From NCBI RefSeq assembly GCF_025949695.1, contig NZ_JAPDFL010000001.1, positions 1,098,001-1,162,000 on the forward strand: a stretch of DNA of 64,000 bases, given 5' to 3'. This DNA is from Pararhodobacter zhoushanensis. GTDB lineage: Bacteria; Pseudomonadota; Alphaproteobacteria; Rhodobacterales; Rhodobacteraceae. Of the stretch, positions 20,789 to 38,600 are shown in pieces. Position numbers and translations under genes: made by a program. Below the pieces are notes generated by a model that saw only the letters and a list, made by a program, of their open reading frames with translations, was not told the DNA's origin and searched no databases. Numbering within the stretch: the first letter of the stretch is position 1; the number at the start of each line of letters is the position of its first letter.

Positions 20789-20862
20789 GGTGGGTTGGCG
20801 GAGAGGTTACGCACCGGATTGCAAATCCGTGAAGACCGGTTCGATTCCGGTACCCACCTCCA
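20789..20862 (+). tRNA. tRNA-Cys (GCA), integration target of the adjacent element
   Basis: The 74-nt cloverleaf has acceptor GGTGGGT paired with ACCCACC, anticodon loop TTGCAAA (anticodon GCA) on a CCGGA/TCCG stem, T arm CCGGTTCGATTCCGG, discriminator T and encoded CCA. From position 20814 to its end and 7 nt beyond, the sequence is repeated perfectly at 29576-29631, so the element integrated into the 3' half and restored an intact gene on this side. Confidence 0.97.
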
Positions 20863-20869
20863 AGACTTT
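20814..20869 (+). repeat. attachment-site repeat, integrase-proximal end
   Basis: The 56-bp sequence is identical to 29576-29631 and runs from the anticodon stem of tRNA-Cys through CCA into CAAGACTTT. Identity breaks at 20870 (T versus C) and at 20813 (A versus G). It is the inferred product of site-specific recombination at the tRNA 3' end. Confidence 0.95.
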
Positions 20870-20908
20870 TCAAGCACTTGCGCTCCTTTGAGGTTTTCGC
20901 CGGTCCCG

Positions 20909-20934
20909 GCGTTTACAGTTGCGTTTACAGTTGC
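20909..20934 (+). repeat. candidate arm-type integrase sites (left end)
   Basis: GTTTACAGTTGC occurs twice in direct tandem (20911-20922, 20923-20934), giving GCGTTTACAG at 20909-20918 and 20921-20930. The same 10-mer in the same orientation lies at 29538-29547, 28 bp before the other attachment repeat. Paired placement near both ends is what arm-type sites of a tyrosine integrase would show; binding is inferred. Confidence 0.5.
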
Positions 20935-20936
20935 AC

Positions 20937-22004
20937 TCACGATGCACCACCTTTCGCTTGTGCCAATTTCACAAGGATCGCGTCCGACTCGTCGGGCGAG
21001 ACGCGAGCGTAGTGCTCGATCACAGCCGCCGCGTACCGCACAGACCAACCCATGAATGAGGCGATTTCGCCCAGTGATAGGCCCGAGTTGAGTAGCCGCG
21101 TTGCAGCCGTGCCGCGCGTGTCCTGCAACCGCAGGTCATAGCCCAATGCTTCGGGCGTCAGCCCAGCCTTGTTGCGCCAGTAGCGCAGGGCGTCAGACGC
21201 CGCCCGCGCTGCCAAGGGCGTACCCTTGGGATTTGTGAGAATAAGGAACTGCCCGTCTGCCGTTGCGTCGAGCAACGCGCTCATCGTGGGTGTCACCGGA
21301 ATATAGGCGGTCCGCTTGCGCTTGTTCGTCCGGATGCGGATGCGGCGCCCGGTCGAGGTCGCTTCGATTTGACCACGGCTCAGGGTGACGAGATCGGCAG
21401 GGCGCAGGCCTGTTTCGCAACCGGCGGTCAGGATGCGCGATACCCAAGGCGGCGCGACCGCATAGACCTTTTCCCGATGATCCGGCGTCCAGACGATTTC
21501 CGCGCGGTCGGCTTCATAAACCTTGCGGAAGTCTCCGCAGTAGTGTGCCCGCAGCTTTCCGGCGTCCTTCCATGCCCAATTCAGAATGCGCGTAACCACG
21601 GTTCCGGCATAGTCGTACTGGCGCGGGGAATGCGCCCACTGCTTACGCCATTCATTCACTTCGCCGCGGGACTCGGGTTCTTCGAACAGACGCGCGGGAT
21701 CGTCCTTGAATGCTTGTGCGAAGCGCAGCGCCCAAAGCCGATAGTCTTGCCGTGTCCGCTCGCCCTTGGGCATTTCAGCGCTGGACAGGAAATCATCGAC
21801 CATTTGCGGGGTCATATAGTCAGAAGGTTTGGGCGTCTCGATCGCGGCAGCCAAGGCCGCAAAGAATTCCGGCGCAGTCGGGTGTCGCTCGGTCCCTTCC
21901 CAAAATTTCGGGCCACCGCGCCAGCCGTAGAAGTGAAATTTTATTCCGGTTTTGGTCAGTCGCTTGACGCGATGCACACCGGTGGGCAGATCAAAGCGAG
22001 CCAT
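20937..22004 (-). CDS. int: tyrosine recombinase/integrase of the tRNA-Cys element
   Basis: The 355-residue protein (ATG at 22004) has an N-terminal SAM-like core-binding region (about 60-150) and a C-terminal catalytic domain. Arg201 is in the ETGLRPADLVTLSR box, a Lys-rich beta-hairpin (NKRKRT, about 227-232) follows, then Arg297 in QDTRGTAATRL and the nucleophile Tyr332 in VIEHYARV. Two usual His positions differ: Gln294 replaces the first, and Trp320 (MGWS) the second. Trp is tolerated there in some family members. It lies next to tRNA-Cys and reads towards it, the usual arrangement. Its start overlaps the excisionase-like gene by 14 nt. Confidence 0.93.
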   Translation of the reverse strand: MARFDLPTGVHRVKRLTKTGIKFHFYGWRGGPKFWEGTERHPTAPEFFAALAAAIETPKPSDYMTPQMVDDFLSSAEMPKGERTRQDYRLWALRFAQAFKDDPARLFEEPESRGEVNEWRKQWAHSPRQYDYAGTVVTRILNWAWKDAGKLRAHYCGDFRKVYEADRAEIVWTPDHREKVYAVAPPWVSRILTAGCETGLRPADLVTLSRGQIEATSTGRRIRIRTNKRKRTAYIPVTPTMSALLDATADGQFLILTNPKGTPLAARAASDALRYWRNKAGLTPEALGYDLRLQDTRGTAATRLLNSGLSLGEIASFMGWSVRYAAAVIEHYARVSPDESDAILVKLAQAKGGAS

Positions 22005-22272
22005 TGCGCGCCCTTCTTTGTTCGACAAGTGAAAGTGGGGGCGAAGTGCTATCGGCAGCGGTGCGGCAGAGGCCCTGAGCGAGGTCGAGACGATGCCGGA
22101 CGTGCTTCGGATCATACCAGCCCGCACGGCCGGGGACCGGGCGAATACCCAAGGTGGCGCAGAATTTCCGAAAGGAATCGTTCGCTCCCGAATAGCCGAG
22201 GCAGGCCGCTACCTCGGCAGCGGGAACCAGTCGGATCATTTCGTGCAGGAAGTCTTGCGGATGATGCGTCAT
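21991..22272 (-). CDS. small DNA-binding, excisionase-like protein
   Basis: The 93-residue protein contains LVPAAEVAACLGYSGANDSF followed by RKFCATLGIRPVPGRAGWYD, a winged-helix layout like excisionase and MerR-type DNA-binding domains: a helix-turn-helix and then a WYD wing end. It is encoded just upstream of int and overlaps its start by 14 nt, so coupled expression and a role in directing excision are likely. The family was judged by pattern only. A repressor role is the main alternative. Confidence 0.7.
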   Translation of the reverse strand: MTHHPQDFLHEMIRLVPAAEVAACLGYSGANDSFRKFCATLGIRPVPGRAGWYDPKHVRHRLDLAQGLCRTAADSTSPPLSLVEQRRARNGSL

Positions 22273-22352
22273 CGGGGCCGTGACAGATTGATTTCAGGAA
22301 CAGCGCAGCGAGCCGGGGGCGCGGGCTGCGCCCCCGGCTTTGGTGCCCGGCG

Positions 22353-23810
22353 TTACGCGCCGGGGTTCTTGAACCACGACGCCCAGGACACGAACCGGGC
22401 GTCCAGTGCCCAGACAAGGCGGAACTCGGTCCCGAGGGTCTCCCAGCCCGGCTTGGACTCGACACGGGGGGCGGACTGGCCGTCCAAGAAGGAATAGGCC
22501 AGACCGTCCGAGGTGGCGGGGTTGCCGATCAGATACCAAGCCTTCGCATCGGTCAGCCCGACCTCAACGATGATTTCCAGCGAACCGGCGAAGGGGTTGG
22601 TGTCGCTGGATTTGGTCGCGTTGATTTGAGCAAGGACTTGCTGCGCTGCCGTCTCCAGCGCGGGCGGGACCACCAGTGCCCACGGCTCGATCGCGAAGTA
22701 TTCACCCTGTTTGCCGCGCTGGGTGCGCAGCGCCAGACGCGCCGCCGACAGGCTGGCGACGGACAGCGCAGCCCCCGAGCTGGCGAGGTTGCCGTGGGCG
22801 GCGTGGAACACCGTTTTGCCGTCCGACATGGTGTTGCCAAGCCCAGCATTCGCCAACAGCGGTTCCAGCAAGACGTGACGCTGGCGCTCGATCGCGCCCG
22901 CAACCATCTTCTTGGCAATCTGGCCGAAAAGCCCCAGATCATCGTTGATGAGCGCCTTTTGCGAAATCCGGAACAGCGCCGCGAAATCACGGGGGGCGGG
23001 CTTGGCTTCACCGCTTTCATCAATGGTCACATGCTTGATCTCGCCGCCCTCGCCGACTTCCTGAGGCATCCCCGAGGCAGACAGACCCAGCATGTTTCCG
23101 AGGCGGTAGTCGGTCGCTTCAACCTCATGCGCGGCGCGCATCAATGCGGGCTTTGCGGCCAGAACATCGCGGGCAACGAGATTGCCGAGCGCGCCGCTCA
23201 GAACGCTGGGGAAGTCGCTGGTGGCGTGCGTCGCCATGCGGACCGCTTCGTGCATGTTGAACGGTCGATTCCCGTTCGCCCGCTCGAAAGCCATCGCCAT
23301 TTCGGCTAAGGAATGGCTGGCGAACCGCCGCCCGGTCGTCGGGGTATGGTTACGGTCGAGCCGGGCTTGCAGAGCGTCCGTGAACATCGCGACATTCTGG
23401 TGGAGCGGCGACTGCCAGCGAGTGATGCATGGTCCAGTCGCTCCCCCCATTTTGGGGCCCTTCGAGCGGAGCCGCGCGATCGCGTGCCGCAGCAACAGAG
23501 ACGCCGACATTTCCGTTTTCTCGGCATCAGGGTCGCCGCCACTGTCTCCACGGTCGGCTTGGTTGTCCTCGATCGCTTGCAGCAGTGCGGCTTTCATTTC
23601 TTCCAGCGTCATGTTGTGCATCGAGAACAGGGCAATGAGCGCCTGCAACTCTTCAATCAGTTTCGCGTCCAAGTCGTCGGCGGTGCTCATGTAGGGCGTG
23701 AGCTGACGGGCAACCCATTTCGGGATCTCGGCCTTGCCAAGCAACATCTGCACTTGTGCCAGCAGCTGGGCCGGCGGCTCACCTTCGTGTTTCATCTGAA
23801 AATCAAGCAT
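22353..23810 (-). CDS. phage major capsid protein (gpT/prohead-fusion type)
   Basis: The 485-residue protein has an N-terminal delta/scaffold-like region (about 1-130, acidic, with the helix LDAKLIEELQALIALFSMHN). The capsid domain follows, with HATSDFPSVLSGALGN, FAALFRISQKALINDDLG, GLGNTMSDGKTVFHAAHGNL and PPALETAAQQVLAQINATKS. These are the hallmarks of major head proteins that occur fused to or beside ClpP-type prohead proteases in proteobacterial phages. Product: the HK97-fold shell subunit. It overlaps the protease gene by 8 nt, so the two are coupled. No portal, connector or terminase gene accompanies it in the element. Confidence 0.9.
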   Translation of the reverse strand: MLDFQMKHEGEPPAQLLAQVQMLLGKAEIPKWVARQLTPYMSTADDLDAKLIEELQALIALFSMHNMTLEEMKAALLQAIEDNQADRGDSGGDPDAEKTEMSASLLLRHAIARLRSKGPKMGGATGPCITRWQSPLHQNVAMFTDALQARLDRNHTPTTGRRFASHSLAEMAMAFERANGNRPFNMHEAVRMATHATSDFPSVLSGALGNLVARDVLAAKPALMRAAHEVEATDYRLGNMLGLSASGMPQEVGEGGEIKHVTIDESGEAKPAPRDFAALFRISQKALINDDLGLFGQIAKKMVAGAIERQRHVLLEPLLANAGLGNTMSDGKTVFHAAHGNLASSGAALSVASLSAARLALRTQRGKQGEYFAIEPWALVVPPALETAAQQVLAQINATKSSDTNPFAGSLEIIVEVGLTDAKAWYLIGNPATSDGLAYSFLDGQSAPRVESKPGWETLGTEFRLVWALDARFVSWASWFKNPGA

Positions 23811-24426
23811 TCTGTTTCTCCGTGCTTTGATGATTGGGCGATCCGGTCCCCCAGCCGTTTTCTCGGGCGAGCCTCAGCAGGTGCCTGGGTGCGCCCCGGA
23901 ATTTCGAATAGTCGAACGCCGCGACCATCTGCGGCCCTGTTTCCAAGGCTTCGATCCGGTCGCAGAAGTTCAGTTCAAGAGCCTCATCGGCGGTCAGCCA
24001 CGTTTCCTGCTTCATCCAGGCGGCAATGGTTTTGACCGGGTGGCCAGTGTGGCGCGCATAGGCGGCGGCATAGGTCCCGCTCATCTTTTCGAGGGCATCG
24101 GCAGCGGAACGGTGCTGATCCGCCGTGCCCTCGGCCATCGCGTAGGGTTCATGGATCATGAACATTGCGGCGGGATGCATGATGATCGTGCGCCCCGCGA
24201 CAGCGGGCAACGTGGCGGCAGAGGCGCAGATCCCCTGAATGTACGTCGTCACTTTGCCGTGCCGCTCAACCTCGGCCATCATCGCCGCGCCTTCGGCGGC
24301 GCTGCCGCCGCCGGAGTTGATGCAGATGGTCACCGATCCGAGGTTTTGAGCGAAAAACTCGGCCAGATCCGTAGCGCAGGCGTTGCCCGAGCCAATGTTG
24401 CCGGAAATGTCAAAGCGCGGCTTCAT
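23803..24426 (-). CDS. ClpP-like phage head maturation protease
   Basis: The 207-residue protein has the Clp protease fold: ITICINSGGGSAAEGAAM-like oxyanion strand (about 33-49), catalytic Ser69 in GICASAATLPAVAG, His92 in FMIHEPYAMAEG and Asp156 in ELNFCDRIEAL. In phages this protease removes the capsid delta domain after shell assembly. I chose the ATG at 24426, 1 nt after the preceding stop. It is coupled to the capsid gene by an 8-nt overlap. All three catalytic residues are present, so it should be active. Confidence 0.92.
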   Translation of the reverse strand: MKPRFDISGNIGSGNACATDLAEFFAQNLGSVTICINSGGGSAAEGAAMMAEVERHGKVTTYIQGICASAATLPAVAGRTIIMHPAAMFMIHEPYAMAEGTADQHRSAADALEKMSGTYAAAYARHTGHPVKTIAAWMKQETWLTADEALELNFCDRIEALETGPQMVAAFDYSKFRGAPRHLLRLARENGWGTGSPNHQSTEKQNA

Positions 24427-24427
24427 C

Positions 24428-24664
24428 CTAGTCCGCCGCCGGGTTGGTCGTCTGCGTGCCCGGCACAAATTTCGGAACAGCGTATTCCGGCGACTGCTTG
24501 ATCAGCACCTTGCCACCTTCGGCGCAGGCGCTTTTCAGATAGAGACGGTGCCGAAAGAAATACTCCGTTTCGGTCTCGCGCTCGGGTTCAATCAGGCTGA
24601 AAAAGTCCAGCCGCCCAAAGGGTAAGGGCAGCGGGACAGACTGGTGAAAGGTGGCATGGCGCAT
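24428..24664 (-). CDS. small protein of unknown function in the capsid operon
   Basis: The protein is 78 residues from the ATG at 24664, chosen because GAGGGG lies 8 nt upstream; an in-frame ATG at 24724 would overlap the previous gene. It contains SVPLPLPFGRLDFFSLIEPE and a Pro-rich tail (KFVPGTQTTNPAAD). It ends 1 nt before the protease start, so it belongs to the same transcript as protease and capsid. No family is recognised. A head-completion or decoration role is possible from position only. Confidence 0.55.
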   Translation of the reverse strand: MRHATFHQSVPLPLPFGRLDFFSLIEPERETETEYFFRHRLYLKSACAEGGKVLIKQSPEYAVPKFVPGTQTTNPAAD

Positions 24665-24677
24665 TGTCAGAACCCCC

Positions 24678-25211
24678 TCAAAATGCGTCATCAAGCAACC
24701 AAGCGGGCCGCTGATCCTCATCACTGATCACGCCAAAATGCTTCAAGCTCGAAACCACGAACCGCGATGCTTCGCTGGCGTTCACCAAGACAATGCGTTG
24801 CACGGCCTCTGCGGCGGTATTTTCTGCGATCAGCGCCGGAACCTCGTCCAGCGTTCCCGCAAACAGTTGCCGAGGCTGAAAGCCTTCGACGGGACGTTCC
24901 TGCACAAGGACAAGGTAAAGATCGGAAGTCGGCGCGCGCTCAGAGGCTGTCAAAAGTTTCCGCCAAGCATTGCTCGCAGCATATTTGGCCGAGTTGACAT
25001 CGACTCCACCATTGTCTGTGAATTCCATCATCATCCGCAGGTCGAAAGCATCGCGAGCGCTATAGTCAGCGCGGCGCTTGCTGCCGTCCGAGTTCACGCT
25101 AACGAAGCTAGAAGGCTCCGGCGCAATGAACGGGAGGTTCTTGTGGAAATGGTAGTTGTCAAAACGCTTCTCTGCGCATTGAGTGACTTCGAGGACGAGG
25201 CGACGCTTCAT
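24678..25211 (-). CDS. protein of unknown function, first gene of the capsid operon
   Basis: The 177-residue protein begins MKRRLVLEVTQCAEKRFDNY with an AAAGGG ribosome site upstream; an upstream in-frame ATG lacks one. It is soluble, with mixed charge, and contains DAFDLRMMMEFTDNGGVDVN and AEAVQRIVLVNASEASRFVV. I recognise no family. It leads the four-gene minus-strand unit ending with capsid. The 242-bp gap upstream (25212-25453) holds no gene but has a CTCGCC/GGCGAAG hairpin near 25410-25430. Confidence 0.6.
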   Translation of the reverse strand: MKRRLVLEVTQCAEKRFDNYHFHKNLPFIAPEPSSFVSVNSDGSKRRADYSARDAFDLRMMMEFTDNGGVDVNSAKYAASNAWRKLLTASERAPTSDLYLVLVQERPVEGFQPRQLFAGTLDEVPALIAENTAAEAVQRIVLVNASEASRFVVSSLKHFGVISDEDQRPAWLLDDAF

Positions 25212-25453
25212 GAGGGAACCCTTTCGAGGAAAATTCACTTTAGGCAAAGTGTTTTATTGGTGCTGAAGCATTGGGTCAACGCCCCCTGCGCATCTTGGGC
25301 GCTTTTCTCACGCCCAACTGTCGCGCTTATTGGCCTGACCATCAGAGCTTGCGGCAAAGCCCACACGAACAGTTCAGTCCCGATATCGCGTTGCCGATTG
25401 TGACCACTCACTCGCCTTTCGGCGAAGTTAGAGAGTGGCAGGACTGAGTATCG

Positions 25454-25837
25454 TCACCAATCCGCCAGCCGGTGCCATCCCGCCGAGTCCTGCCGATGGA
25501 TCGAGGCAACCCTACCAATCACATCGCTATCCAGAGAGCCGGTCGGAATTTCGAGCCATCCCGCCCCATCGTTCATGTTCACGCGCGTTCCGGCACACCG
25601 CTCGCCGCGAATGAGCACACCACCTGACAACATGTATTGGTTGCCGTGGCTAATCTGGTCGCAGGGATAGCAGCATGCGAAGGTGCCGGGACTGCCCAGC
25701 ACCTCGATCACGAACGGAATCACCGGGCGCGGAGGATCTTCGACAAGCTCACCGGTGACGGCCTCAACCCCCGTGGCAGCGGTGGCCGATCCAGCGGCGA
25801 CGATCGCGCCAGAGCGCAGAAACTCACGCCGGTTCAT
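25454..25837 (-). CDS. small Tat-exported protein of unknown function (element gene)
   Basis: The 127-residue protein has a twin-arginine leader, MNRREFLRSGAIVAAGSATA (RRxFL). Its mature part has three Cys (FACCYPCDQISHG and GERCAGTRV), suggesting a metal or disulfide site. It overlaps the upstream gene by 4 nt (ATGA). Its neighbour has the same kind of leader, so the two may be exported together, or the leader-like start may be a shared relic. The function is unknown. Confidence 0.6.
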   Translation of the reverse strand: MNRREFLRSGAIVAAGSATAATGVEAVTGELVEDPPRPVIPFVIEVLGSPGTFACCYPCDQISHGNQYMLSGGVLIRGERCAGTRVNMNDGAGWLEIPTGSLDSDVIGRVASIHRQDSAGWHRLADW

Positions 25838-26259
25838 GGTTGCACCCCCGCCAGTGCCTCTTGAGCGGCGTGCATGACGGTGTTGGGGGCTGGCAGGCGC
25901 TCAGCAGGGACCAACCCGCCGAGCAGCGCGCGCGCTTCATTCCAGACCGGCGAACAGTCATAAAGACAGGAAAAGTCCCCAAAATTATGAGCCACCAGCA
26001 TCTTCGCCGCCAAATCCGCCGCGCAGGTGCTGGGTATGGATATGAGCCTGTCTTCGATCGCGTCACGCTCGAAGTAAAACAGCCGATCCAGTTCGTCGTC
26101 GTCCAACGACGGGTGCGTATCCGCAGCATCGGTCAAAGCGATATAGGCCCGATACAGCCGCAAGATTTCTGACTCACCCGGCTTTGCGTCAGCGCCAGCC
26201 GGAAAGAAAGCGAGCGCGGCGCCGCTGGTCCATGTTGCAAGCATCGCACGCCGGTTCAT
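25834..26259 (-). CDS. small exported protein with Tat-like leader (element gene)
   Basis: The 141-residue protein begins MNRRAMLATWTSGAALAFFP, a leader with paired Arg and an Ala-rich cleavage region (GADA-KPG). The mature helical part contains RAYIALTDAADTHPSLDDDE and ends in a Leu/Ala-rich helix. Genes of this look occur in alphaproteobacterial prophages, in my recollection, with no assigned role. It is coupled by ATGA overlaps to genes on both sides (25837/25834 and 26259/26256). Confidence 0.6.
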   Translation of the reverse strand: MNRRAMLATWTSGAALAFFPAGADAKPGESEILRLYRAYIALTDAADTHPSLDDDELDRLFYFERDAIEDRLISIPSTCAADLAAKMLVAHNFGDFSCLYDCSPVWNEARALLGGLVPAERLPAPNTVMHAAQEALAGVQP

Positions 26260-26444
26260 GCTTGTACCCCCATCAGCTTGACGGTTTGGCGCAGGGCGGT
26301 GCGCATGTAGCTACGGGCCTCACGCAAGGGCTGCGGATAGCCGCGCGGGCTTTCCGTGGCGTCCAGCGCCAGAGCGAGCATGTCGTGGATTTCGTGAAGT
26401 CTTGCGGCAGGCAATGCCTGTCCGCTATGGCTGGTGTTAGCCAT
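26256..26444 (-). CDS. 62-residue helical protein (element gene)
   Basis: The sequence MANTSHSGQALPAARLHEIH continues with DMLALALDATESPRG and EARSYMRTALRQTVKLMG, which suggests two amphipathic helices. It is the first gene of a three-gene coupled unit; its stop overlaps the next start by 4 nt. It is divergent from the RHH regulator gene, so the 111-bp gap 26445-26555 is a likely regulated promoter region. No family is recognised. Confidence 0.55.
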   Translation of the reverse strand: MANTSHSGQALPAARLHEIHDMLALALDATESPRGYPQPLREARSYMRTALRQTVKLMGVQA

Positions 26445-26555
26445 TCGCGTTCTCCTTACAGAACGAGTTTCGGTTAGGGCGGCAGGGTGTTAGCGCACCT
26501 TGTTCGCCCGTCAACTTTCTGCCATCGTTTAGTTGGCGCAGTCAAGGACTTTGTA

Positions 26556-26726
26556 ATGTCAGAAAGTAAGAAGCGGATGGGGCGACCGCCGGTGAACTCT
26601 ACGCCGGTAACAGTCCGCATCCCGCCTAGCCTTCTCGACTGGATCGACACTGAACGCGCCAAGTTAGACCCGGAGCCGAGCCGACCGGAGTTCATCCGCA
26701 AGTTGTTGGAGGAACGGCGGCGCTGA
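26556..26726 (+). CDS. ribbon-helix-helix (CopG/Arc-type) regulator
   Basis: The protein is 56 residues from the ATG at 26556, with AAGGA upstream. MSESKKRMGRPPVNSTPVTV is a basic tail with a GRPP AT-hook-like motif. The strand VTVRIPPSLL and helices DWIDTERAKL and SRPEFIRKLLEERR make a complete RHH fold. It would dimerise and bind DNA, and it most likely controls the divergent element promoter. It could alternatively be an antitoxin without its toxin. Confidence 0.75.
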   Translation: MSESKKRMGRPPVNSTPVTVRIPPSLLDWIDTERAKLDPEPSRPEFIRKLLEERRR

Positions 26727-26901
26727 GGCAGTTTTCGGCACCGCACTTCACGGCATATTTACTGTTTTGGCGACATACTGCCGCGTGATAGCGAAAACAG
26801 GCACAAGGACTCTAGCCAAATCACTTTGGCTTGTGGTTACCTTTACTCATACAAATTCGACGCCAGATTCAACTGGTGCCCCTTCTTGAAAGGATGGAAC
26901 C

Positions 26902-27102
26902 ATGCTTATGAACCCGACGCATACGTCCGACGCAGGGCTGCTGCAGCGCCTGCGCGCGGCTGCCAGCAAAGGCGTGTCCGCTGCCGAGCTGCGCGCTCAA
27001 CGTGTGTCCTTCATCGTGTCATCAGTGAGTGACGGGAAGACCGTAGTGACACGCGAGATGGTCGAAGCTGAGCTCAAAAAACTGAACGGTGAAGCTGCCT
27101 GA
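26902..27102 (+). CDS. 66-residue protein preceding the Fic gene
   Basis: The start MLMNPTHTSDAGLLQRLRAA has a strong ribosome site (AAAGGATGGA) 5 nt upstream. It continues with SKGVSAAELRAQRVSFIVSS and a charged helix at the C-terminus (REMVEAELKKLNGEA). It ends 12 nt before the Fic gene. Position suggests a partner or antitoxin, but the Fic-inhibitory motif (S/T)xxxE(G/N) is not seen here. The 175-bp gap 26727-26901 before it contains no gene and should hold the promoter. Confidence 0.6.
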   Translation: MLMNPTHTSDAGLLQRLRAAASKGVSAAELRAQRVSFIVSSVSDGKTVVTREMVEAELKKLNGEAA

Positions 27103-27114
27103 GGTTGCTTTTGT

Positions 27115-27747
27115 ATGATACTTTTTGACCTGAGCAACTCCGAAGCTCACCCGGCATATCAAGCACTGGCGATCTCCAACGGGGATCGCCAGTTTAGTTT
27201 TCTACAGTCTGTTGTGAACGCTGCGCTGGAAGCTCAGCAGCTCTTTTTGTCGCAGGCCGTTTTGAAAGCCCTGAATTTCCACGCGATCGCCTGCCTGCAC
27301 ACCAACGCTGGAGAGTTCCGCCCCTGCAACGTCCATGTTGCCTATCCAGACCCAGCGGATAACTACAACGCGCCGGAGCACTTTCGTGTGCACGCCCTCA
27401 TGGACAACTTCATCAATTGGGTGAACTCTAACTGGAAAGAAGCCGATCCAGTCGCGCTAGCGGCGTATGTGCTCTGGCGGCTGTGTGCGATTCACCCGTT
27501 TATCAACGGCAACGGGCGGACTGCTCGAGCGGCGGCTTACTTCACGATCTGCGTCAAAGCGGGCGGTTGGCTTCCCGGCACGGAAAACATGATTACCCTA
27601 CTCAAGCGGCATGCCAACTACAACACTGCGTTGAAGCATGCCGATCAGTCTCTCGTCACTGGCAAGTTAGACATTGCTCCGCTTATCACAGTGGTCGGGG
27701 AGTGCCTCCAGCAGCAACTGAACTCCGCCGCAGCTCCAGCGTCATGA
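27115..27747 (+). CDS. Fic/Doc domain protein (putative AMP transferase)
   Basis: The 210-residue protein has the Fic core motif HPFINGNGRTAR at residues 127-138 (HPFx(D/N)GNGRxxR, complete) and a flap-like segment FRPCNVHVAYPDPADNYNAP (about 68-87). Fic proteins transfer AMP, or other phosphate-containing groups, to target hydroxyls and often act as toxins or effectors. I see no inhibitory (S/T)xxxE(G/N) helix within the protein, so it may depend on a partner, perhaps the 66-residue protein. In the element it may serve stabilisation, host takeover or phage defence. Confidence 0.88.
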   Translation: MILFDLSNSEAHPAYQALAISNGDRQFSFLQSVVNAALEAQQLFLSQAVLKALNFHAIACLHTNAGEFRPCNVHVAYPDPADNYNAPEHFRVHALMDNFINWVNSNWKEADPVALAAYVLWRLCAIHPFINGNGRTARAAAYFTICVKAGGWLPGTENMITLLKRHANYNTALKHADQSLVTGKLDIAPLITVVGECLQQQLNSAAAPAS

Positions 27748-28509
27748 GCAACCGCTGAAAGCAACCACCTTCGGGGAAAGCCATCCTCTGGTGACGTTGC
27801 TCTGACGATCGAGATGCGAGACGCGGCAACTTGCGCTCGTGTACCTTGCGTTTGTCTCAGTAGTTGTCACTTTGGGTCGGGTAGAACATCGCTTCGGCCA
27901 CTTGAAAAATGCACTGCCAGTGCATTCCCAGCTTCGCATGCGAGGAGCGCAGGGTGCCAAAATAGGGCGTCCTGCCGTTCTGGGGGCCTCTGCGCGCGCC
28001 AACGGGGTATCGCAAGCCCTTTCCCACGGTGGGGCGTCCAGCCGGGTACAGGGACAAAAAGTACCTTGGCGACATGGAGCGAGTGGCGGTGCTCGGAGAC
28101 GCCCTGTGGGCCTTACAGGAGCGGGCGTCGGGGTTTCAGCGCTATTGGGCGGCGAAACCCGAGGCCCGCTTGGCGCGCCCGTTGCCGCGCCTGCCGGGCC
28201 GAACCCTCGCCCGATTTTCCGCAGGGTTTGATTTGCGCGCCGCGCTGCATGGACTACAGCCGCGCGCTGACGGGGTTTCCGCACTCGCCGTCTTACCGGG
28301 ACATTTCGGGGGAAGAAAACTAAGGCCCGCACGCATGTCCTGCGCTATCTCGTATCGCCCAACCAGATCGGGGTATTTAGATACCCCAACCACAACCTCT
28401 TTTCACCCTCTCGCGAACCGCCCAGCCCCCACCCGAACCGGGGCGCGAATTACCCGCGTGCAAGGGTTCTCGGCGAAGGACCCAGATAGGGGGGGGCGGC
28501 GGGCGAACA
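27748..28509. other. 762-bp gap without a convincing gene; two palindromes
   Basis: Open frames on both strands here have poor composition, rich in Arg, Pro and Ala. A perfect interrupted palindrome AATGCACTG-C-CAGTGCATT (27908-27926) and TCGCATGCGA (27934-27943) lie close together. A GTG-started frame at 28029-28526 and a minus frame at 27857-28075 remain possible small genes but have no support. It may be control DNA between the Fic unit and the initiator gene. Confidence 0.5.
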
Positions 28510-29427
28510 TCAGAACTGGACCTTGAGGCGTCGGAGCTCGTCCTTCGACACTGCCCCCGAACTGATCAGGACCGCAGCAACGTCGGGGGAAATCCCGTTT
28601 GCGGGCACATGCCGCCCCTCCTTGATGGTTTTCGCCCAGAAGGCTGCCATTCCCTGCAAGCTGCGACCACGATCAGCAGTTGCGCGGTCATCCGGGAAAT
28701 CCTCCCAGCGGCGTTTCTCAAGCCAGTTGTCTGCATAGGCCAGGTACATCGCCGTGTTGCCCTTGTTCTCTGCCCTGTAACGCTCAGCCGCTCGGATCAA
28801 CCGTTCTGAAGGCGTGCCATCGCTCACAGCTTGGGCAAACAGTTTCTCAGCCCTGTTCCGATCTCGCGGTCTGGGATGCGCCTTCCAAAACTTTTCGAAG
28901 TGTTCGCGAATGTGTGCGGAGCCTGCTCCGCCAACACAAGGTTCCATTACAGGTTCCTTTACAAGGTTAGTGTCGGGTTTTCCGACACGGCTTTCCGGGT
29001 TTTTCCGACACGGCTCTGCCGGAATTTCCGACACGGCTTTTTGGGTTTTGGGCGTGGTCGTCGTGGCAGGTTTCGAGGCGGTTCCGGCCTTGGGACCGCC
29101 GACAGGCGCGGGCCGAACAGGAGAGGCGGCACCTTCATCCGGATCGCCAAAGTCATCTTCGAAGGCCAGCTTGTAGCGCGTCGGTCGCTGGCGCTTTGTG
29201 CGCGGGTCGATCGAGCGGAAACGCCGGATCAGCCCGCGCTCTTCCAAGAGTGCAAGCTGGACGTTCACCGTGTCCCTGTTCAATTCGCAGGTGCTGGCGA
29301 GGAATGCTTGGGTCGGAAAGCAGCCGTGGGCGGGGTTGTGGCAGTCGGCCAGTGTCAGCAGCACCAGCTTTGCCGAAGGTTTAAGACCGCGTTGTCCAAA
29401 GGCCCAACTGGTGGCGACGTGGCTCAT
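28510..29427 (-). CDS. HTH replication-initiator-like protein of the element
   Basis: The protein is 305 residues from ATG 29427. The N-terminal winged-helix domain (MSHVATSWAFGQRGLKPSAK through CFPTQAFLASTCELNRDTVN, HTH_36-like) is followed by a low-complexity linker (about 95-155, rich in Pro, Thr and Lys). A C-terminal helical domain has EHFEKFWKAHPRPRDRNRAE and MYLAYADNWLEKRRWEDFPD, as in phage replication proteins that recruit or load helicase. The linker DNA contains three 23-bp iterons in three different frames (28978-29046), as in lambda O-type initiators whose origin lies within the gene. It lies next to the integrase-distal attachment site. Confidence 0.75.
   Translation of the reverse strand: MSHVATSWAFGQRGLKPSAKLVLLTLADCHNPAHGCFPTQAFLASTCELNRDTVNVQLALLEERGLIRRFRSIDPRTKRQRPTRYKLAFEDDFGDPDEGAASPVRPAPVGGPKAGTASKPATTTTPKTQKAVSEIPAEPCRKNPESRVGKPDTNLVKEPVMEPCVGGAGSAHIREHFEKFWKAHPRPRDRNRAEKLFAQAVSDGTPSERLIRAAERYRAENKGNTAMYLAYADNWLEKRRWEDFPDDRATADRGRSLQGMAAFWAKTIKEGRHVPANGISPDVAAVLISSGAVSKDELRRLKVQF
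28970..29046. other. candidate replication origin: three 23-bp iterons inside the initiator gene
   Basis: CCGACACGGCT occurs at 28982, 29005 and 29028, each within a 23-bp unit (TTTTCCGACACGGCTTTCCG and variants). An inverted partial copy GTGTCGG lies at 28970-28976. Since 23 is not a multiple of three, the copies are read in three frames (AVSEI, PCRKN, SRVGK), so conservation is at DNA level. Directly beside them at 28938-28970 are A/T-richer repeats AGGTTCC(A/T)TTAC, a possible unwinding element. Confidence 0.65.
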
Positions 29428-29537
29428 GCTACACCCCGCAGGGCCTTGTGCGCGCCGACGCAAGCACGCATTGCCGCGCGCAATTGGTTTACGCGCGGGT
29501 CGTAACCCGTTGATACTTGGCCGTGAACAAACAGGGG

Positions 29538-29547
29538 GCGTTTACAG
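29538..29547 (+). repeat. candidate arm-type integrase site (right end)
   Basis: GCGTTTACAG, identical to the two copies near the integrase (20909-20918, 20921-20930), lies 28 bp inside the right attachment repeat in the same orientation. Confidence 0.45.
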
Positions 29548-29575
29548 GTCAGCCCTTTGAATTCAGTAGGGAAAG

Positions 29576-29631
29576 CCGGATTGCAAATCCGTGAAGACCG
29601 GTTCGATTCCGGTACCCACCTCCAAGACTTT
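29576..29631 (+). repeat. attachment-site repeat, distal end (tRNA-Cys 3' fragment)
   Basis: A perfect 56-bp copy of 20814-20869. It lacks the acceptor 5' strand and D arm, so it is not a functional tRNA. It marks the right end of the element. Chromosomal sequence resumes after 29631, and 29632-29830 holds no gene. Confidence 0.95.
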
Positions 29632-32666: not shown

Positions 32667-35600
32667 ATGTACCGTTTCGCCGACCGTCTTATGTCGGGCA
32701 TTTTCAACGCCCTCTGCAGATTTCTTGCTATGGTGGCGCTGGTCGTGTCTGGGGCAACGGCGGCAGTTGCAGGCCAAAGCAACGGGTCGATCATCCTGAC
32801 CCATGTTGTGGATGGACAATGTCTGGCCGGGCCTTACGCCAATGCCACTGTGGCAGATGTTAGGGTGAATTGGTCCGCAACAACCAGCGGTCCGGGAGAG
32901 GCCACGTCCATAAACAGTTGGGAGACTACCAGCCCGAGCTGGACGCTTCGTGCAACCAGCGTGACTCCGGGCGGCTCGACCTTGACAGGCGGCGTTAGCA
33001 ACTACGAGTTTGGGCAGGCCAATTTGATTGGCACGAATGCCTGGTTTGCCATGTACGGGTCTTTCACCGATGCAGGCATGGGACGTTCCAGCAACGTTTC
33101 TCCGCTCAGCCCACCGGATATCGCTTCCGGTTTTGGCGCCTTTTACGTCCCGGTTTCAATCAACATGGCCGCCGACCCCGATTGCGTGCCGGCACCGGCT
33201 CAGATCGAGATCCTTGGCACCGACAGTTCCGTCATCGCCAATGGTGAAACTACCACAAGCACGATTGATGGCACCGATTTCGGCGACGTTGCAACGGAAG
33301 GGGCGTCGGTAACCCGCACGTTCCAGATTCGCAACGCCGGCGCAATGAACCTCAACATCAACTCTGTCGGCGTCACCGGCCCGTTCTTTGTCGGCATCTC
33401 CTCGGCCACTGCCGCCCCGGGCCTCACGGATTTCACCATCCGCTTCGACCCAAGCAGCGCCGGTGCCGCCTCTGGAACCGTGACATTCCAAACCGACGCC
33501 GGCACCGACCCGTCCTATACCTTTGCGGTCAGCGGCACCGGTATCGTCCCCAGCGAGCCCGAGCTTGCCGTCTATGGTTTGTCGGGCGGCGTCACGGTCC
33601 TGATCCCGGACGGGTCACCATCGGCAAGCAGTGCCTTGGGCACAGTTTACGATCAGCAGGATCACACGACCGGATCTGAGAACCGCACCTTCAGGCTGTT
33701 CAACAGCGGCACTGACACGCTGAACATATCCTCGGTCACCGTCACATCCGGATCGGGTTTCTCGGTTCTGAATTTTCCGTCTTCCGTTGGTGTCGGCGGC
33801 ATCGCGACCACTGGCATCCGGTTCGATCCGCCCAGCATCGGCGTGTTCAGCGCCATTGTGACCGTGGTAAGCGATGATCCCGACAGCCCCTATACCTTTG
33901 CCGTCGGAGGAGAGGGCGTCGATACGTCGCCGCCCACCGCGACGCTGAGCGCGCTGCAGAGCCCGGCTGGCAACGGAGTCTATACCTCGCAGGTGACCTT
34001 CTCCGAGCCGGTTACGGGTTTCACGGCCACCGACCTGACGCTGCTCAACGCCACCGCGACGGTGACGGCGGTGTCGACAACCGTCTACGGCGTCGTTCTG
34101 ACGGCGGTGGCGGCCGGTACGGTCAGCTACGCCATCCCTGCCGCCGCTGCCCAGGACGGTGCCAGCTTTGGCAATGTGGCGGCCGGTCCTGTCACGGCCA
34201 CCTTCGCCGGCGTGCCCGGAATCGAGATCCGCGGCAACGGCCAGTTGATCGCGCCCGGCGCCACGACGCCCGTGACCGCGAACGGCACCGATCTGGGCGC
34301 GATCGAGTCCCCCGGAAGCGCGACGCAGGATTTCGTCGTCACCAACCCTGGAACGCGCACGCTTACGATCTCGGGGATCGAAGATGGCAGCAGCTATTAT
34401 TCCGTCTCACCCCAAACCTTCACCGTCGCGCCCGGAGCCAGTGAAACCTTCACCGTGACCTATGAGCCTGTCCTGCTCGGAACGCATACCAGCGTGATTC
34501 AGGTCGCGTCCGACGCACCGGCCCAAAGCACCTACTATTTCTACATGCGCGCAAGAAGCGTCGACACCACCGCCCCCACCGCTGGGTTTTCGCCGCTGGT
34601 CGGGCCGGATAGCGGCGTGTTCACCACCACCCTCACCTTCAGCGAGCCGGTCATAGGCTTCAGCCTGTCGGATCTTACCCTGGTCAATGCTACGGCCACG
34701 ATGACCGGCACCGATGCCGTCTACGAGATCACCCTGACGCCCCAAGCCGACGGCACCGTCAGCGTCGCGCTGCCCGCAGCGGTCGCCAAGGATGCTGCCG
34801 GCAATGACAACACCGCCGCCGCCAGCGTCAGCGCAGACTATGACGCCACCGCCCCCTCGGTCACCATCACCGGCGTCCCGGCGCTGACCAGCGCGCCGTT
34901 CACCGCGACCTTTACCTTCAGCGAGGCGGTTACCGGCTTCGCGGCGGGCGATATCACGGTTACCAACGCGGCGGTCTCGGGTTTCTCGGCGAGCAGCAGC
35001 ACGGTCTATACCGCGCTGATCACGCCGACAGCGGATGGCCCGGTGACCCTGGACGTCGCGGCGGCTGTGGCCGAGGACGCGGGCGGCAACGGCAACACGG
35101 CTGCGGTGCAGGCGGTCTCGGAGTACGACGCGACGGCCCCTTCGGTCACCATCACCGGCGTGCCGACCCTGTCGAGCGCGCCGTTCACCGCGACGTTCAC
35201 CTTCAGCGAGGCGGTCACCGGCTTCGCGGCGGGCGATATCACGGTTACCAACGCGGCGGTCTCGGGCTTTGCAGCCAGCAGCAGCACGGTCTACACCGCG
35301 CTGATCACGCCGACGGCGGACGGCCCGGTGACGCTGGACGTCGCGGCAGCTGTGGCCGAGGACGCGGGGGGTAATGGCAACACGGCGGCAACCCAAGCCA
35401 GCAGCCAATACGACGCCACCGCCCCCTCGATCACCATCACCGGCGTGCCGACCCTGTCGAGCGCGCCGTTCACCGCGACCTTTACCTTTAGCGAGGCGGT
35501 TACCGGCTTCGCGGCGGGCGATATCGTGGTTAGCAACGCGTCGGTCTCGGGCTTCGCGGCGAGCAGCAGCACGGTCTATACCGCGCTGATCACGCCGACG

Positions 35601-38600
35601 GCGGATGGCCCGGTGACGCTGGACGTCGCGGCGGACGTGGCCGAGGACGCAGGGGGCAACGGAAACACGGCTGCGGTGCAGGCGGTGTCGGATTACGACG
35701 CCACCGCGCCGTCGGTCACCATCACCGGCGTCCCGGCGCTGACCAGCGCGCCATTCACCGCGACCTTCACCTTCAGCGAGGCGGTTACCGGCTTCGCGGC
35801 GGGGGATATCGTGGTTACCAACGCGTCGGTCTCGGGCTTCGCGGCGAGCAGCAGCACGGTCTACACCGCGCTGATCACGCCGACGGCAGACGGCCCGGTG
35901 ACGCTGGACGTCGCGGCGGACGTGGCCGAGGACGCGGGGGGCAACGGGAACAGCGCTGCGGTGCAGGCGGTCTCGGAGTACGACGCCACCGCGCCGTCGG
36001 TCAGCATCACCGGCGTGCCGACCCTGTCGAGCGCACCGTTCACCGCGACCTTTACCTTCAGCGAGGCGGTCACCGGCTTTGCGGCGGGCGATATCACGGT
36101 TAGCAACGCGTCGGTCTCGGGCTTCGCGGCGAGCAGCAGCACGGTCTACACCGCGCTGATCAGCCCGACGGCGGACGGCCCGGTGACACTGGACGTCGCG
36201 GCGGACGTGGCCGAGGATTCAACCGGCAACGGCAACACGGCTGCGGTGCAGGCGGTCTCGGAGTACGACGCGACCGCCCCTTCGGTCACCATCACCGGCG
36301 TGCCGACCCTGTCGAGCGCGCCGTTCACCGCGACCTTTACCTTCAGCGAGGCGGTTACCGGCTTTGCGGCGGGGGACATCGTGGTTAGCAACGCGGCGGT
36401 CTCGGGCTTCGCGGCCAGCAGCAGCACGGTCTACACCGCGCTGATCACCCCGACGGCGGACGGCCCGGTGACGCTGGACGTCGCGGCGGACGTGGCCGAG
36501 GACGCGGGCGGCAACGGCAACACGGCTGCGGTGCAAGCCGGCAGCCAGTACGACGCGACCGCGCCGTCGGTCGCCATCACCGGCGTTCCGACCCTGTCGA
36601 GCGCACCGTTCACCGCGACCTTCACCTTCAGCGAGGCGGTTACCGGCTTCGCGGCGGGGGACATCACGGTTACCAACGCGGCGGTCTCGGGCTTCGCGGC
36701 GAGCAGCAGCACGGTCTATACCGCGCTGATCAGCCCGACGGCGGACGGCCCGGTGACGCTGGACGTCGCGGCGGCTGTGGCCGAGGACGCGGGGGGCAAC
36801 GGCAACACGGCTGCGGTGCAGGCGGTCTCGGAGTACGACGCCACGGCCCCTTCGGTCACCATCACCGGCGTGCCGGCGCTGTCGAGCGCAGCGTTCACCG
36901 CGACCTTTACCTTCAGCGAGGCGGTCACCGGCTTCGCGGCGGGCGATATCGTGGTTAGCAACGCGGCGGTCTCGGGCTTCGCGGCGAGCAGCAGCACGGT
37001 CTACACCGCGCTGATCACCCCGACGGCGGACGGCCCGGTGACACTGGACGTCGCGGCTGAAGTGGCCGAAGACGCAGGGGGTAATGGCAACACGGCGGCA
37101 ACCCAAGCCAGCAGCCAATACGACGCGACGGCCCCCTCGGTCACCATCACAGGCGTCCCGGCGCTGTCGAGCGCGCCGTTCACCGCGACGTTCACCTTCA
37201 GCGAGGCGGTTACCGGCTTCGTGGCGGGGGATATCGTGGTTAGCAACGCGTCGGTCTCGGGCTTCGCGGCCAGCAGCAGCACGGTCTACACCGCGCTGAT
37301 CACGCCGACGGCGGACGGCCCGGTGACGCTGGACGTCGCGGCGGCTGTGGCCGAGGACGCAGGCGGCAACGGCAACACGGCTGCGGTGCAAGCCAGCAGC
37401 GAGTATGACGCCACCGCCCCCTCGGTCGCCATCACCGGCGTGCCGGCGCTGTCGAGCGCAGCGTTCACCGCGACCTTTACGTTCAGCGAGGCGGTTACCG
37501 GCTTCGCGGCGGGGGATATCACGGTTACCAACGCGGCGGTCTCGGGCTTCGCGGCGAGCAGCAGCACGGTCTATACCGCGCTGATCACGCCGGCGGCGGA
37601 CGGCCCGGTGACACTGGACGTCGCGGCGGCTGCGGCCGAGGACGCAGGGGGCAACGGCAACACGGCTGCGGTGCAGGCGGTCTCGGAGTACGACGCCACC
37701 GCGCCCTCGGTCACCATCACCGGCGTGCCGACCCTGTCGAGCGCGCCGTTCACCGCGACCTTCACCTTCAGTGAGGCGGTTACCGGCTTCGCAGCGGGGG
37801 ATATCATGGTTGCCAACGCGTCGGTCTCGGGCTTCGCGGCGAGCAGCAGCACGGTCTACACCGCGCTGATCAGCCCGACGGCAGACGGCACGGTGACGCT
37901 GGACGTCGCGGCGGCTGTGGCCGAGGACGCAGGGGGTAATGGCAACACGGCGGCAACCCAAGCCAGCAGCCAATACGACGCCACCGCCCCCTCGATCACC
38001 ATCACCGGCGTGCCGACCCTGTCGAGCGCACCGTTCACCGCGACGTTCACCTTCAGCGAGGCGGTTACCGGCTTCGCGGCGGGGGATATCATGGTTGCCA
38101 ACGCGTCGGTCTCGGGCTTCGCGGCGAGTAGCAGCACGGTCTATACCGCGCTGATCAGCCCGACGGCGGACGGCCCGGTGACACTGGACGTCGCGGCGGC
38201 TGCGGCCGAGGACGCAGGGGGCAACGGCAACACGGCTGCGGTGCAGGCGGTCTCGGAGTACGACGCCACGGCCCCTTCGGTCACGATCACCGGCGTCCCG
38301 GCGCTGACCAGCGCGCCGTTCACCGCGACCTTCACCTTCAGCGAGGCGGTTACCGGCTTCGTGGCGGGGGATATCATGGTTAGCAACGCGTCGGTCTCGG
38401 GCTTCGCGGCGAGCAGCAGCACGGTCTACACCGCGCTGATCACGCCGACGGCGGATGGCCCGGTGACGCTGGACGTCGCGGCGGACGTGGCCGAGGACGC
38501 GGGGGGCAACGGGAACACGGCTGCAACCCAAGCCAGCAGCCAATACGACGCCACCGCGCCGTCGGTCGCCATCACCGGCGTCCCGGCGCTGACCAGCGCG

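Follow-up and report, generated by a model that had tools for sequence, protein, structure and literature searches.

The stretch analysed here (hereafter the window; 64,000 nucleotides of Pararhodobacter zhoushanensis, contig NZ_JAPDFL010000001.1) contains a bounded element with intact genes and no recognised portal or terminase, which belongs to a conserved family and carries a cos-like site that matches those of phages (Table 1). Exact 56-bp direct repeats bracket 8,762 bp, measured start to start, as the first-pass annotation had described (perfect tRNA-Cys repeats around about 8.8 kb), and because ARAGORN places a tRNA-Cys(GCA) gene at this border, the repeat is the 3′ part of the tRNA plus 7 bases. 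A genome of the same genus (G222), in which no relative of the major capsid protein (MCP) was found at an E-value of 1e-20, has the stretch from the M19 peptidase gene to tRNA-Cys, and the match stops at the tRNA 3′ end. The leftward genes of the element are, in order, g62, the 141-aa and 127-aa genes, g189, g98, the ClpP-type protease, the MCP, the excisionase-like (xis-like) gene and the integrase gene (int); a ribbon-helix-helix (RHH) regulator, a 66-aa gene and a Fic gene run rightward, and an O-like initiator gene runs leftward at the far end. Gene frames were cross-checked by tblastn and an open-reading-frame listing, the gene caller used having overlooked some, for example most of the initiator. 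Profile matches bore out the earlier naming of the integrase, MCP, protease, Fic protein and initiator-like protein, and a PHROG match identifies the regulator as an RHH protein. The excisionase fared less well: profile scans gave no match for its 93-aa product, and the label is mainly supported by the overlap of the gene with the start of int, alongside 33% identity over 51 aa to a gene adjoining int in the relative L045. The element thus has an integrase, a replication module and cargo, as phage satellites do, and tail and lysis genes were not recognised in profile scans.

Table 1. Features of the element and its integration site, in window coordinates
Feature	Position	Strand	Evidence or remark
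tRNA-Cys(GCA)	20789..20862	+	integration site; placed by ARAGORN
Attachment repeat, tRNA-side copy	20814..20869	+	exact 56 bp
Tyrosine integrase, 355 aa (longest frame to 22127)	20937..22004	-	PF00589, 5.9e-12
Excisionase-like gene, 93 aa	21991..22272	-	overlaps int start
MCP, 485 aa, separate from protease	22353..23810	-	PF25209, 7.2e-34; phrog_4523, 3.3e-77
ClpP-type head maturation protease, 207 aa	23803..24426	-	PF00574, 4.9e-21; phrog_94, 2.8e-50
g98, 87 aa (98-aa longest frame)	24428..24691	-	immediately precedes ClpP here and in L140-L143
g189, 177 aa (189-aa longest frame)	24678..25211	-	before head genes; predicted MerR-type DNA-binding N-terminus
127-aa gene	25454..25837	-	weak Tat-signal match, PF10518, E 0.002, below cut-off
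141-aa gene	25834..26259	-	similar genes in L036, L140, L142
g62, 62 aa	26256..26444	-	common to L036, L140, L142, 62-82% identity
RHH regulator, 79 aa	26487..26726	+	phrog_4738, 7e-6; Pfam below cut-off
66-aa gene	26902..27102	+	precedes Fic
Fic-domain protein, cargo	27115..27747	+	PF02661, 3e-15
cos-like site	28385..28494	+	core 19-mer at 28440-28458, then GAAGGACCC block
O-like replication initiator	28510..29463	-	phrog_270, 2.1e-26
Three imperfect repeat copies, 23-bp spacing	28971..29049	+	within initiator gene; candidate origin
Attachment repeat, distal copy	29576..29631	+	exact 56 bp

The two head genes appear to be maintained by selection. Protease residues Ser69, His92 and Asp156 (207-aa numbering), which we take to be the catalytic triad of a ClpP-type protease, are invariant in all nine aligned sequences, that of the window included, in keeping with the intact triad described earlier. 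In a gene-by-gene comparison of the kind that the first-pass annotation had proposed, the proportion of nonsynonymous differences (pN) was well below that of synonymous differences (pS), both for the MCP (0.25–0.31 versus 0.58–0.72; four comparisons) and for the MCP and ClpP together (0.24–0.31 versus 0.58–0.72; eight comparisons), indicating that both genes are under purifying selection. Constraint is looser in g98 (pN 0.37–0.43) and g189 (pN 0.52).

The remaining functions of a phage head were sought in several ways. Scans of the element's proteins against Pfam and PHROG recognised no portal, large terminase subunit (TerL) or tail gene, gave no profile match for a small terminase subunit (TerS), and gave none for an HNH endonuclease or head-tail connectors, although small divergent connectors could escape them. 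Six-frame searches of the whole genome, each with a single family as query (phrog_21 for the portal, phrog_15 for TerL), matched only a prophage 3 Mb away; the earlier observation that the element has no recognisable portal, terminase or tail gene is confirmed. The largest unassigned frame in the element, at 196 aa, has no profile match and is short for a portal. It is highly improbable, in our judgement, that the element makes an unrecognised vertex of its own, with g189 and/or g98 standing in for the portal. A g189-like gene does lie just before the head genes in most members of the family described below, but the g189 product, at 177 aa, is smaller than known portals and begins with a predicted MerR-type DNA-binding domain, and L045 has such a gene in front of its portal. 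Compared with PDB, the g189 profile matched MerR-family domains (2jml, E 6e-5; CueR, 0.003); the protein is likely to bind DNA and perhaps serves as a packaging or regulatory adaptor. A role as a Nu1-like TerS was considered and is unsupported, the g189 profile failing to match the helper-type TerS profile (probability 1%). For g98, which is 36–43% identical in four relatives, no convincing PDB match was obtained.

Relatives of the element were sought in 248 genomes of the same family, with MCP matches accepted up to an E-value of 1e-20. Scanning genome and viral contigs with a single MCP sequence yielded no relative, and an alignment was required; one alignment-based scan recovered loci in Fertoeibacter niger (L140), Paracoccus sp. 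IB05 (L141), Xinfangfangia pollutisoli (L142), Falsigemmobacter faecalis (L143), Chachezhania sediminis (L144, identical to L033) and Roseovarius autotrophicus (L147). MCP relatives occur in 60 of the 248 genomes. A portal lies 1.4–3.2 kb away, start to start, in 66 of 82 matches and is absent within 15 kb in the other 16, some of which sit on cut contigs; the five top-scoring matches all lack both portal and TerL. We counted 12 portal-less loci, namely the window, L140–L143, L144/L033, L147, L034, L035, L036, L039 and L053, among which L035 is ended by a contig end, L053 starts near a contig start and L039 has a split integrase. These loci, from the Rhodobacter/Paracoccus/Roseovarius group, have in common a core of a g189-like gene, ClpP and MCP, g189 being assigned by position and weak similarity and unrecognised in L053. 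The recurring order is rep/primase, cargo, RHH, small genes, g189-like, (g98), ClpP, MCP, xis-like and int. The gene set is uneven, with g98 only in the window and L140–L143, RHH and xis-like genes not called in every member, and ClpP fused to MCP in L036, L039 and L053. Most loci carry int, and their integration neighbours are tRNA-Cys, tRNA-Arg, tRNA-Pro, tRNA-Glu or tmRNA; no tRNA was called at L141. Thus, the compact layout, for which the first-pass annotation had proposed a search of related genomes, is present in the nearest relatives, at other sites.

The eight elements with defined ends measure 7.9–9.7 kb: 8,762 bp in the window (56-bp repeat), 8,778 bp in L142 (45-bp repeat), 7,901 bp in L147 (50-bp repeat), 9,525 bp in L141 (24-bp repeat), 9,664 bp in L036 (16-bp repeat) and 9,682 bp in L039 (18-bp repeat), together with two contigs, L033 from Chachezhania (8,880 bp) and L143 from Falsigemmobacter (9,061 bp), that have exact terminal overlaps of 123 and 45 bp, respectively. 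No bounding repeat was found for L034 or L140. L033 and L143 look circular, the initiator frame of L143 running through the junction, and no integrase was recognised in either, so plasmid-like capsid satellites may exist; L033 carries a Rep3-type initiator, a primase and BrnT/BrnA. A protein search added at least 110 further clusters at 44–71% identity, some fused to the protease (best 120 of 215 matches). The longest contigs of 111 clusters, among the matches listed and with the window included, comprise 19 of 8.5–9.5 kb, 5 of 7.0–8.5 kb and 3 of 9.5–10 kb, with a second heap of short ones (16 at 4–5 kb); the heap at 8.5–9.5 kb hints at stand-alone 9-kb molecules. As a plasmid-borne case, the best MCP match in plasmid records (40%; locus L270) was set aside because it has a portal, no ClpP match and no cos core.

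An MCP tree separates these loci from their portal-bearing relatives. In a tree of 117 rows, built by a quick method with 12 of 18 rows of undetermined portal status left out and a long branch flagged for L036, one branch (Shimodaira–Hasegawa-like approximate likelihood-ratio support, SH-aLRT, 95) unites 13 portal-less rows, which are the 12 loci plus a composite locus, L151, with four rows of undetermined status, and all 94 portal-bearing rows lie outside it. The satellites of these hosts that do have a portal fall in other MCP clades. These results bear on the possibility that the element is a decayed prophage or a degenerate capsid-forming satellite, which we regard as very unlikely. Decay does occur in this setting, as seen in L037, a remnant of 3.07 kb that is bounded by 48-bp repeats and holds an apparent primase-MCP chimera, and in the split integrase of L039, and portal-bearing satellite clades inhabit the same hosts. 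What speaks against it is that the portal-less loci form one clade, that their layout and size recur and that, across many genera, most frames are intact and selection is purifying; the broken genes and lack of same-layout relatives that mark a decayed prophage were not found. The first-pass annotation had reasoned that homologues possessing the missing head and tail genes would point to a random prophage remnant; in the tree, the relatives that have a portal lie outside the clade, and the core common to the 12 loci likewise argues against such a remnant. The remnant L037 itself (L037:8010-11124, in G051) lies at tRNA-Cys, its integrase 67% identical to that of the window and the primase part of its chimera judged by eye. 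The composite (L151:7000-16480, Rhodobacter maris), by tRNA-Glu, looks like two satellites joined, a stretch with primase and MCP and a stretch with g189-like, ClpP and int, with two cos-like sites 129 bp apart.

A link to a helper phage is provided by the cos-like site, which the first-pass annotation had not noticed. In an own-genome DNA search, window positions 28385–28494 matched the prophage just upstream of its TerS gene at 95 of 112 positions (85%). That prophage encodes a TerS 47 and 53% identical to those of two Paracoccus phages, a TerL and a portal identified by profile, a gpW-size gene and a protease-MCP fusion; elsewhere in the genome, a third, partial MCP-like match (L003/L049, C1:3640831) has two in-frame stops. 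The cos site of lambda occupies the same place, upstream of TerS. An exact copy of the core, GGGGYGCGAATTACCCGCG, is present in 54 IMG/VR stretches, 50 of which have a TerS or TerL start facing it (49 within 1.2 kb, one at 3.6 kb) and none a terminase in the opposite orientation; two further stretches have TerS alongside the core by other references. With one mismatch allowed, the 248 family genomes contain 20 core matches versus none for the reversed pattern, and these include 10 at 0.5–0.8 kb from TerL, one by TerS at a contig end and two in portal-less satellites. Among three phage records, Paracoccus phages Psul1 and Pben1 have a variant of the site upstream of TerS and RcFrancesLouise has none, and an INPHARED blastn search with the cos region of the window gave no match. 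The extended site consists of an AAC-repeat block, the core and then GGAAGGACCC; the two-part pattern is present in 9 of the 12 portal-less elements, with no match in 1.31 Mb of shuffled sequence; in the window and in L141, L142 and L143, it is flanked by the initiator and the cargo. The circular-looking relatives invite another explanation, that the shell serves a non-viral use, such as a compartment or DNA store, in a plasmid-like element. The Chachezhania and Falsigemmobacter contigs, in which no integrase is recognised, fit this idea, but both also carry the cos-like site, and we give it little credence.

The AAC block and the finer sequence of the site point to a type of phage. Among 41 sites whose TerS is of the own-prophage type, 40 have the block ahead of the core, versus none of the 11 whose TerS is of the type found in portal-bearing satellites; these counts include near-copies, set aside 14 sites without a TerS or TerL match (three with the block) and treat separately 12 of another terminase type (one with the block), and when fewer loci had been counted, the figures were 37 of 38 and 0 of 9. 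Seven of nine portal-less satellite sites have the block. The exceptions are L035 and L142, and the L142 genome holds a prophage of another terminase type that also lacks the block, satellite and prophage sharing a different-looking flank. In the five genomes with both partners, the site of the co-resident prophage ranked 1, 1, 1, 7 and 8 of 77 in similarity to the satellite site, with first-rank margins over the next site of 77 versus 66.5, 68 versus 49 and 51.5 versus 50.5 (the last in G250); a 5 × 5 permutation of the pairing gave 2 of 120. The 77 ranked sites include those of portal-bearing satellites and those without a recognised terminase, with L213, a near-copy of the own prophage, left out. 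Prophages of this kind are co-resident in 5 of 14 satellite genomes versus 5 of 239 others (Fisher p = 5e-5, or 4e-4 with a looser background count of nine; counts entered by hand). Thus, the site found in terminase-less satellites is that of a phage type and frequently that of the resident prophage, and since the packaging-type signal of the element matches a resident phage, the element probably borrows its portal and packaging motor from that phage, a borrowing of the motor that had been suggested earlier and now gains support from the shared site.

We therefore consider a phage satellite the likely identity of the element: it would build the shell itself, and a helper would supply the terminase that packages its DNA, the portal through which the DNA enters and the tail. 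For the clade as a whole, it seems reasonably probable that its members make only shell and protease and insert a helper-encoded portal and terminase into that shell via the helper-matched cos site. Of the head genes, it would have retained only the MCP and protease genes, those required for making and maturing a shell. Upon induction, int and xis would excise the element from tRNA-Cys, and it would replicate from its own initiator. Its shell would assemble around the portal of a lambda-like helper, whose terminase would cut the helper-type cos site and package about 8.8 kb, and helper head-completion and tail proteins would complete the particle; g189 may guide packaging or regulation. Since a T=7 shell serves a 40-kb helper and volume scaling gives about 11 kb for a T=3 shell, 8.8 kb would fit a small capsid.

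Several observations weigh against this model. Seven of the 20 genome core matches adjoin no recognised terminase. L034, L036 and L147 have no recognisable cos-like site, and own-genome DNA searches found in them no such shared stretch, only matches that were short or inside the MCP and initiator genes; a second cos type was looked for in the same searches and none was found. The pairing comes from five genomes, with a narrow margin in G250 and two ranks of only 7 and 8, and the likeness of the sites may stem from recombination between neighbours and not from present use. Four rows without a recognised portal lie outside the clade (L084 and L092 from IMG/VR; L153 and L155), so missing portal calls can also arise elsewhere or from divergent portals. 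No IMG/VR row placed in the tree falls in the clade, the IMG/VR scan needing exact short patterns, and packaging in nature is therefore unseen. Finally, the MCPs of satellite and own prophage share only about 34% identity, which means that a portal from the helper would need to fit a foreign shell. That divergence also tells against a different mechanism, in which the MCP and protease co-assemble with or poison the helper shell, shrinking it or interfering with it, and remodelled helper heads package the satellite in the manner of P4. This mechanism would predict a helper-type cos site equally, and known satellites are reported to remodel helper capsids (PMC10945586, PMC12409344), but a pure remodeller would not obviously need a protease with its catalytic residues kept by the MCP, and we judge it unlikely.

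The seven cores without a recognised terminase (L234–L240, in G091, G125, G019, G038, G036 and G077) perhaps belong to capsid-less satellites or other phages; the second block accompanies five of them and the AAC block three, and L236, near tRNA-Arg, has next to it a small gene that is excisionase-like by eye. Among the accessory genes of the element, the RHH regulator is 76% identical in L036, and the Fic protein matches part of the PADLOC SoFic profile (E 4e-14). The cargo slot of relatives holds genes of defence type, including SoFic in L141, AbiJ-like in L143, GmrSD in L039 and a capP/RmrA-like fragment in L142. At window positions 25454–26259 are two adjoining small genes, one with a weak match to the twin-arginine translocation (Tat) signal and the other Tat-like by eye, with similar genes in some relatives. 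The repeat stretch of the initiator gene (window 28947–29040) is 76% identical to C1:1718888-1718981 of the same genome, perhaps another phage origin. Just beyond the element, a 2,377-aa open frame spans 32961–40094.

Comparison with described satellites helps to place the element. Like capsid-forming phage-inducible chromosomal islands (cf-PICIs), it is integrated, encodes its own MCP and head protease and has no recognised tail genes. However, cf-PICIs are reported to encode a portal, head-tail connectors, TerS, TerL and HNH (PMC10690885) and to average 14 kb (PMC10803314), whereas none of these genes is recognised in the 8.8-kb element, which by the features tested (portal, TerL, connectors) is not a cf-PICI; the cf-PICI host list given in PMC10803314 names no alpha-proteobacteria. 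In P4, the helper terminase recognises the cos site and Sid redirects the helper shell protein (PMC10690885). The element resembles P4 in having a helper-type cos site and no recognised terminase of its own, as judged at the sequence level, but having its own shell protein and protease it is by definition not P4-like. The Mulch and Flayer satellites of Streptomyces also encode capsid genes but carry both terminase subunits, portal, scaffold and adapter (PMC10690885), and VEIMEs (virion-encapsidated integrative mobile elements) and tycheposons are described as chromosomal islands transduced by marine bacteria, possibly satellites (PMC10803314). Closer to home, portal-bearing satellites (L046, L045, L052, L215, L223 and L197) have protease-MCP, int by a tRNA where seen, g62- or g189-like genes in some, and a similar cos core in L052, L215, L223 and L197. 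They differ in possessing portal and terminase, in a cos site by their TerS without the AAC block and in their separate MCP clade; L215, L223 and L197 are IMG/VR contigs of 10.6–11.3 kb and, with L046 and L052, are capsid satellites with portal and terminase. The satellite reading of the first-pass annotation is thus supported and sharpened, but a capsid-bearing satellite as such is not new, because separate satellite clades in these hosts keep TerS, TerL and portal (for example, L046). Literature searches brought up no account of elements of this kind in these hosts, which does not prove their absence from print.

Portal and shell are commonly regarded as belonging together, since assembly is initiated at the portal vertex. 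On balance, we favour placing the clade between P4, which takes the helper shell, and cf-PICIs, which take only tails, with its own shell uncoupled from the portal. If this is true, a lineage that has a shell but no portal would offer a naturally occurring test of how foreign portals are accommodated by a shell, and these elements, at about 9 kb, would define a minimal satellite with a capsid of its own. As no clade member is among the IMG/VR matches placed in the tree, viral catalogues may be missing such elements, and the cos-like signature can link satellites to their likely helpers from sequence alone.

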